A DNA stretch of 64,000 bases from an uncultured Pelagibacteraceae bacterium (GTDB lineage: Bacteria; Pseudomonadota; Alphaproteobacteria; Pelagibacterales; Pelagibacteraceae): contig CACFKZ010000003.1 in NCBI GenBank assembly GCA_902566945.1, positions 1 through 64,000 on the forward strand. The letters run 5' to 3'. Positions 57,243 to 57,611 of the stretch are shown piece by piece. Made by a program: the position numbers and the translations under genes. The first letter of the stretch is position 1. Each line of letters begins with the position of its first letter. Under the pieces are notes generated by a model. The model was not told the origin of the DNA, made no database searches, and saw only the letters and a list, made by a program, of their open reading frames with translations.

Positions 57243-57611
57243 ATGGCAACTATCAAATCTACTGACGAAAATTTTGAAAAATTAAAAAAAGAACATAAAA
57301 ATCTATTATTAGATTTTTGGGCACCTTGGTGTCGATGAGCCCACTCACATTTTGTGGGTGGGCTCATCGATACAAACCCACGCGGTCCATGCGTTCAAAT
57401 CTCCCCGGTGTTAGAGCAAATTTCTGAAGAGATGAAAGATGTAACTATCGCTAAACATAACATTGAGGAGGAATTAAACCTTCCAGTCCAATATTCTGTG
57501 AGAGGAATTCCTACTATGATTCTTTTTTGTAATGGAGAACAAAAAGCTGTTAAAGTAGGCGCATCTAGCAAAGAAGATCTAGTCGAATTTCTCAAAAAAA
57601 ATAAAATTTAA
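57243..57611 (+). pseudogene. trxA: Thioredoxin interrupted inside its CGPC active site
   Basis: Thioredoxin reduces protein disulphides through a CGPC motif. The first 30 codons read up to NLLLDFWAPWC, then Arg and a UGA stop at 57336-57338. From 57384 the same frame resumes with GPCVQISPVLEQI and continues normally through YSVRGIPTMILFCNGEQ to the end. Taking out 57333-57383 (51 bases, 17 codons) restores WCGPC and a 105-residue protein of standard size. All the rest of the gene is undamaged, so either the disruption is recent, or the insert is bypassed or removed. Position next to folC is the usual one. Confidence 0.85.
57333..57383. mobile_element. 51-base palindromic insert in trxA
   Basis: The insert is about 55% GC within a gene and genome that are far poorer in GC. 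Together with four flanking bases it forms a 21-bp stem (57329-57349 with 57353-57373) having only two G-U pairs and a TTT loop. The remaining 10 bases of the insert (57374-57383) are unpaired. No target duplication is evident. It resembles in size and behaviour small palindromic elements known to insert into alphaproteobacterial genes, though its sequence is not one that I recognise and no second copy was noticed in the window. Confidence 0.7.

Follow-up and report, generated by a model that had tools for sequence, protein, structure and literature searches.

The window, a stretch of 64,000 nucleotides from the draft genome (76.8% complete) of an uncultured Pelagibacteraceae bacterium of the SAR11 group, carries a thioredoxin gene, trxA, that is broken within its active-site motif WCGPC by a GC-rich hairpin with an in-frame stop codon. 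This raises the question of whether thioredoxin is still produced from such a gene and, if it is, how the interruption is dealt with during expression. A sequence-only reading of the window had put forward three ideas, namely a small palindromic mobile element, an RNA removed or bypassed during expression and a recent inactivation, and had set an assembly or amplification artefact against them. Only the second of these ideas has survived. Our preferred interpretation, to which we give a probability of roughly 0.62, is that the insert serves programmed translational bypass in SAR11 trxA, much as in T4 gene 60.

The insert and its hairpin

The coordinates of all features are collected in Table 1. 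The insert lies exactly where the sequence-only reading had placed it, flanked by TGT (57330-57332) and GGT (57384-57386) and thereby splitting WC from GPC, and it reads CGA TGA GCC in frame, with the UGA noted before as its second codon. Joining TGT to GGT gives the 105-residue thioredoxin that had been expected from exact removal, with a Pfam Thioredoxin match of E = 8e-28. RNA folding returns the 21-bp stem described earlier, with two G-U pairs and a UUU (TTT) loop, at -40.4 kcal/mol (z = -9.3, equalled by none of 200 shuffles); the 5' arm of the stem takes in the last base of TGG and the whole TGT codon. The high G+C content of the insert, first estimated at about 55%, is indeed 55% against 29.4% for the genome. 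When all 864,174 bases were scanned for GC-rich hairpins with stems of 11 bp or more, this hairpin was the strongest in the genome, scoring -37.9 kcal/mol in the scan as compared to -22.0 for the runner-up. Rfam 15 gave no match to it above the gathering threshold, the sub-threshold matches being to microRNA and other hairpin models. The gene is preceded by rmuC and an exonuclease gene and followed, on the other strand, by a Mur-ligase-like gene (probably folC) and then accD, trpA and trpB.

Table 1. Features of the interrupted trxA gene, in positions of the 64,000-nucleotide window
Feature	Position	Strand	Remarks
trxA, interrupted thioredoxin gene	57243..57611	+	halves 57243-57332 and 57384-57608; stop TAA 57609-57611; orthologues found
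51-nt insert between the Cys30 and Gly31 codons of WCGPC	57333..57383	+	same site in 13 other species
Hairpin	57329..57373	+	arms 57329-57349 and 57353-57373; loop 57350-57352; covariation over 10 species
CGA, proposed take-off codon	57333..57335	+	insert codon 1: CGA in 9 carriers, GGN in 5
In-frame UGA, paired within the stem	57336..57338	+	stop at insert codon 2 in the ten type A carriers, at codon 3 in the four others
Unpaired insert tail	57374..57383	+	type A alignment; G at 57382 invariant
GGU, motif Gly codon, proposed landing or resume codon	57384..57386	+	GGN in 14/14 carriers, GGN having been a requirement in several carrier searches

Distribution of the insert across SAR11

A search of the genome itself and of related genomes had been suggested as a check. 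At home the insert is present in a single copy in 864 kb, and inserts at the identical point (W-C^G-P-C) occur in 13 further species. This single copy and the constant location at one trxA codon do not support a dispersed palindromic mobile element of the REP, MITE or RPE kind.

The carriers came to light in several steps of increasing breadth. A pattern built on the inner stem matched six genome records, four of which are Pelagibacteraceae assemblies (AG-349-P08, AG-912-O16, AG-349-F22 and AG-920-I21), and all four of these matches lie at the same trxA codon boundary. In the window's genus, a joined-protein search of 169 genomes revealed eight with an interruption of trxA at residue 30/31, namely the window's own and G439, G470, G436, G498, G484, G023 and G497; G439, G470, G436 and G498 correspond to the four AG- assemblies and are counted once. 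The comparison of trxA among relatives also turned up genomes in which the gene is unbroken, such as G068, G069 and G222. A wider pattern applied to a sample of the family added, among the matches listed, G580 and G543 from genus g9 and G260, G261 and G083 from genus g6, and a g6 sample contributed G651. The insert is thus carried by at least 14 species, the window's own included, which belong to three genera, all of the SAR11 family Pelagibacteraceae; this count is a lower bound as the wider patterns used on the family and g6 samples demanded GGN. In a class-wide sample of 337 genomes, the matches beyond the window look like chance only.

A tree of 63 thioredoxins, which is poorly resolved owing to the shortness of the protein, calls for about eight events in which the insert was gained or lost, and branches with good support require four or more of these. 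This implies that the insert was gained, lost or transferred several times, and either repeated gain or loss or transfer along with trxA is likely.

Three insert families with a covarying stem

The inserts can be classified into three types. In type A, TGT is followed by CGA or GGG and then directly by a stop; this type is 49-52 nt long and has ten carriers (the window, G436, G439, G498, G484, G470, G260, G261, G651 and G083). Type B has TGT GGT NTT TAG and is found in G023 and G497 with 41 and 43 nt, while type C has TGT GGG GAG TAA and is found in G580 and G543 with 48 nt. Every insert of all three types forms a hairpin, and the boundaries and stems of the types are without evident common sequence. 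The lengths across carriers (41, 43, 48, 49, 51 and 52 nt) fall into all classes modulo three, so that the divisibility by three remarked on at the outset holds for the 51 nt of the window and is incidental to the element. A stop codon is present in frame in 14 of 14 inserts, at codon 2 in the ten of type A and at codon 3 in the other four, and at codon 2 of type A it occurs as UGA, UAG or UAA. Selenocysteine insertion and stop readthrough were rejected, since UAG and UAA replace UGA and some inserts have lengths not divisible by three.

In the alignment of the ten type A inserts, 99.5% of the 198 cells of the stem are standard pairs, and both partners have changed in 10 of the 20 pairs. The covariation score is 0.531, compared to 0.231 +/- 0.028 for shuffled alignments, with none of 500 shuffles as high, and slid registers of the stem come nowhere near the observed value. 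What never varies within type A is TGGTGT, portions of each arm and a G located two bases ahead of GGN. At this last position (57382 in the window) all ten type A inserts have G and the four others have A, for which no single explanation covers all carriers. A second stem-loop, in which the tail would pair with the 3' arm, was considered and dropped: the complementarity (GUGGGU/ACCCAC in the window) seemed convincing on inspection within the window's group but not in the others.

The stem also decides the matter of an assembly or amplification artefact. The genomes are draft assemblies from uncultured cells, and those with AG- names are presumably single-cell amplified genomes, but the insert was recovered in independent assemblies of several species at the same codon and with differing hairpin sequences whose pairing is kept by compensatory changes. 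An artefact is refuted by this covariation and can for practical purposes be dismissed.

Selection beyond the stop codon

The 75 codons beyond the stop are under strong purifying selection, with dN/dS of 0.03-0.14 within the window's group. No second ordinary TrxA was found in any carrier, including G083, which is 97% complete; the other Pfam thioredoxin matches in carriers are far weaker and come from frames of at least 127 aa. Judging from this selection, thioredoxin is evidently still needed and produced in spite of the in-frame stop. A recent or recurrent inactivation of trxA would account for a stop within the active site and for the many relatives without an insert. It would not account for the selection past the stop, the conservation of the insert at the same site in 14 species of three genera, the compensatory changes in the stem or the lack of a replacement TrxA, and a decaying gene is therefore a very remote prospect.

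Under split or regulated expression, translation would terminate at the stop, and the second half would be made by re-initiation, or the full-length protein would appear only under certain conditions. An in-frame GTG or TTG does lie behind the hairpin in the window and some other carriers, but six of them (G484, G260, G261, G083, G543 and G023) have no ATG, GTG or TTG between the last upstream stop and GGN, and in G260 a TGA directly precedes GGA. This contradicts re-initiation as a general mechanism. The active-site cysteines would furthermore fall on separate peptides, and we consider split expression improbable.

The 90 bases upstream of the insert (57243-57332 in the window, and their homologues) show fewer synonymous changes than the second half of the gene in 8 of 8 carrier pairs, while the pattern is reversed in 10 of 12 pairs of intact trxA genes, the pairs not being independent of each other. 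As a point in favour of bypass this is suggestive only, and an additional constraint at the RNA level on these 90 bases is possible.

A proposed model of programmed translational bypass

That the gap is not decoded, with a functional gene on either side of it, is indicated by the lengths in all classes modulo three, the in-frame stops and the selected second half; the spread of lengths means that the insert cannot, as a rule, be read straight through. A stop at codon 2 or 3 of every insert, taking three forms within type A, suggests that the ribosome is where the event takes place. The conserved site, structure and stop, the variable length and the selection on the downstream half are seen in the sequences; the ribosomal location and the identity of the take-off and landing codons are inferred. 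In the proposed sequence of events, the ribosome would decode up to the first codon past the active-site cysteine, CGA in the window and GGG or GGU in other carriers, and stall there at the stop codon and a very stable hairpin. The mRNA would then be released while the peptidyl-tRNA is retained, 41-52 nt would be passed over, and re-pairing at or adjoining the GGN ahead of CCN-UGY would allow thioredoxin to be finished. Two features of the inserts bear on the start of this process: the stop is immediately behind the putative take-off codon in 10 of 14 inserts, with one further codon in between in types B and C, and the covarying stem begins at the putative take-off codon.

The fit between take-off and landing divides the carriers into two groups. 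In the five GGN carriers, a single glycine tRNA fits both codons (GGG to GGA, GGU to GGC or GGU to GGU), and the bypass product would be WCGPC. In the nine CGA carriers, the window among them, the match is imperfect. Their candidate landing triplets are GGN itself or an xGy triplet just before it, and a CGA-reading tRNA fits them perfectly in some members of the window's group only (CGC, CGU), with one or two matching positions elsewhere. The product of these carriers may be WCRPC, WCGPC or WCRGPC, which is the weakest step of the bypass reading; around the junction, the joined protein of the window would run ...LLLDFWAPWC, then G, R or RG, then PCVQISPVLEQISEEMK. Among intact SAR11 thioredoxins there are some with other residues in this position, for example N, Q, S and A.

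The tRNA-Arg genes found in the window's genome have the anticodons UCG and UCU (L047 13593-13670 and L045 970-1046), and tRNA-Arg(ACG) was not found in this incomplete assembly, so that CGA may be read by tRNA-Arg(UCG). CGA is used at 2.06 per 1000 codons in this genome and all CGN codons are likewise rare. This rarity fits a role in stalling without proving it.

Three observations speak against bypass: the landing codon of the CGA carriers differs from their take-off codon, whereas the match in gene 60 is perfect, the stop of types B and C lies one codon farther from the take-off site than it does in gene 60, and the constancy of GGN is explained more simply by a precise excision of RNA. Excision is the main rival, although on balance an unlikely one. 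Here the hairpin would be a mini-intron cut at TGT^...^GGN and the ends would be rejoined, either by an unknown ribozyme activity or by a nuclease and a ligase, to give WCGPC in all carriers. Exact removal does restore WCGPC in 14 of 14, GGN is constant even where CGA is the first insert codon, and type A has an invariant G two bases before the 3' boundary. Such an activity would, however, have to act on three dissimilar sequences whose boundaries and stems share nothing evident, and it leaves the ever-present stop at codon 2 or 3 without an evident role. RtcB, the only RNA ligase searched for, was not found in the 14 carriers and two relatives, most of whose genomes are incomplete. Introns and inteins typically sit inside highly conserved motifs. 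It is nevertheless rather unlikely that the hairpins of 41-52 nt form a new class of bacterial mini-introns served by a ribozyme-like or protein activity new to SAR11; we know of no bacterial intron this small, and if the RNA is excised the insert would, to our knowledge, be the smallest intron-like element in bacteria.

Comparison with known systems

Translational bypassing is firmly established in one phage gene and in yeast mitochondria. T4 gene 60 has a GGA take-off codon with the stop UAG adjacent to it, a stem-loop, a gap of 50 nt and a GGA landing codon, and its sliding stays processive over distances of up to 56 nt and drops off thereafter (PMC11194080). The trxA inserts share with it the codon followed by an in-frame stop (directly adjoining in 10 of the 14), the stem-loop at this place, the gap of about 50 nt and the conserved gene that resumes past the gap in any frame. 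They differ in that a bacterial housekeeping gene is affected at an enzyme active site, in that the hairpin is a single long stem of 20 bp, and in that take-off and landing match in the GGN carriers only; bypass in SAR11 is moreover a prediction from sequence.

Imperfect matches between take-off and landing have been reported for yeast mitochondria (PMC5009743). The byp elements in the mitochondria of Magnusiomyces capitatus are also short inserts that must be skipped to obtain the protein, with imperfect matches, but they occupy 81 sites in 12 of 15 mitochondrial genes, in contrast to the one site in one chromosomal gene of SAR11, and the SAR11 insert has a conserved covarying hairpin, which sets it apart from them. 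Rickettsia palindromic elements are palindromic inserts within protein genes of AT-rich alphaproteobacteria which are larger, spread over many genes and translated in frame; the trxA insert is confined to a single site, bears a stop and in many carriers has a length not divisible by three. Like group I introns and inteins, it sits in the most conserved part of its gene and is patchy among relatives. It is, however, far below the size of all known self-splicing introns, and it is no intein because the stop closes the frame.

A 2016 review states that counterparts of the known bypass systems have long been presumed to exist elsewhere (PMC5009743). If the bypass interpretation is true, trxA would provide such a counterpart in a housekeeping gene of cells that are very abundant, and gene finders would report thioredoxins of this kind as broken or split. 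With 14 natural variants in three sequence families, the requirements for take-off, hairpin and landing lend themselves to direct testing. Among open-licence papers, a search of the literature on bypassing together with SAR11 or thioredoxin found no earlier report of the element, and hairpin skipping of this kind was not found described for any bacterial housekeeping gene.

Possible origin of the insert

The insert of gene 60 may have protected against a homing nuclease (PMC5009743), and by analogy the trxA insert may have protected the conserved motif in which it sits. Phage and plasmid records contained no related element, only short chance matches with E of 2 or more, and an interrupted trxA was found neither in phage records nor, among the matches listed, in viral contigs. 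Neither the type A inner-stem pattern nor the type B pattern matched any viral contig, and further patterns led there, among the matches listed, to unrelated loci only. The type C pattern hit one short hairpin, resembling the type C stem, on a viral contig (L304 9321-9349) outside any thioredoxin gene, which is probably a chance match or terminator-like.

The intact thioredoxins of the window's genus cover a wide range of active sites (CGPC, CNPC, CQPC, CSPC and CSAC) and have very different sequences (for example at L096, L100, L103, L106, L109 and L110). Where the flanks could be read, the same gene lies downstream of these varied copies, as if trxA had often been replaced.
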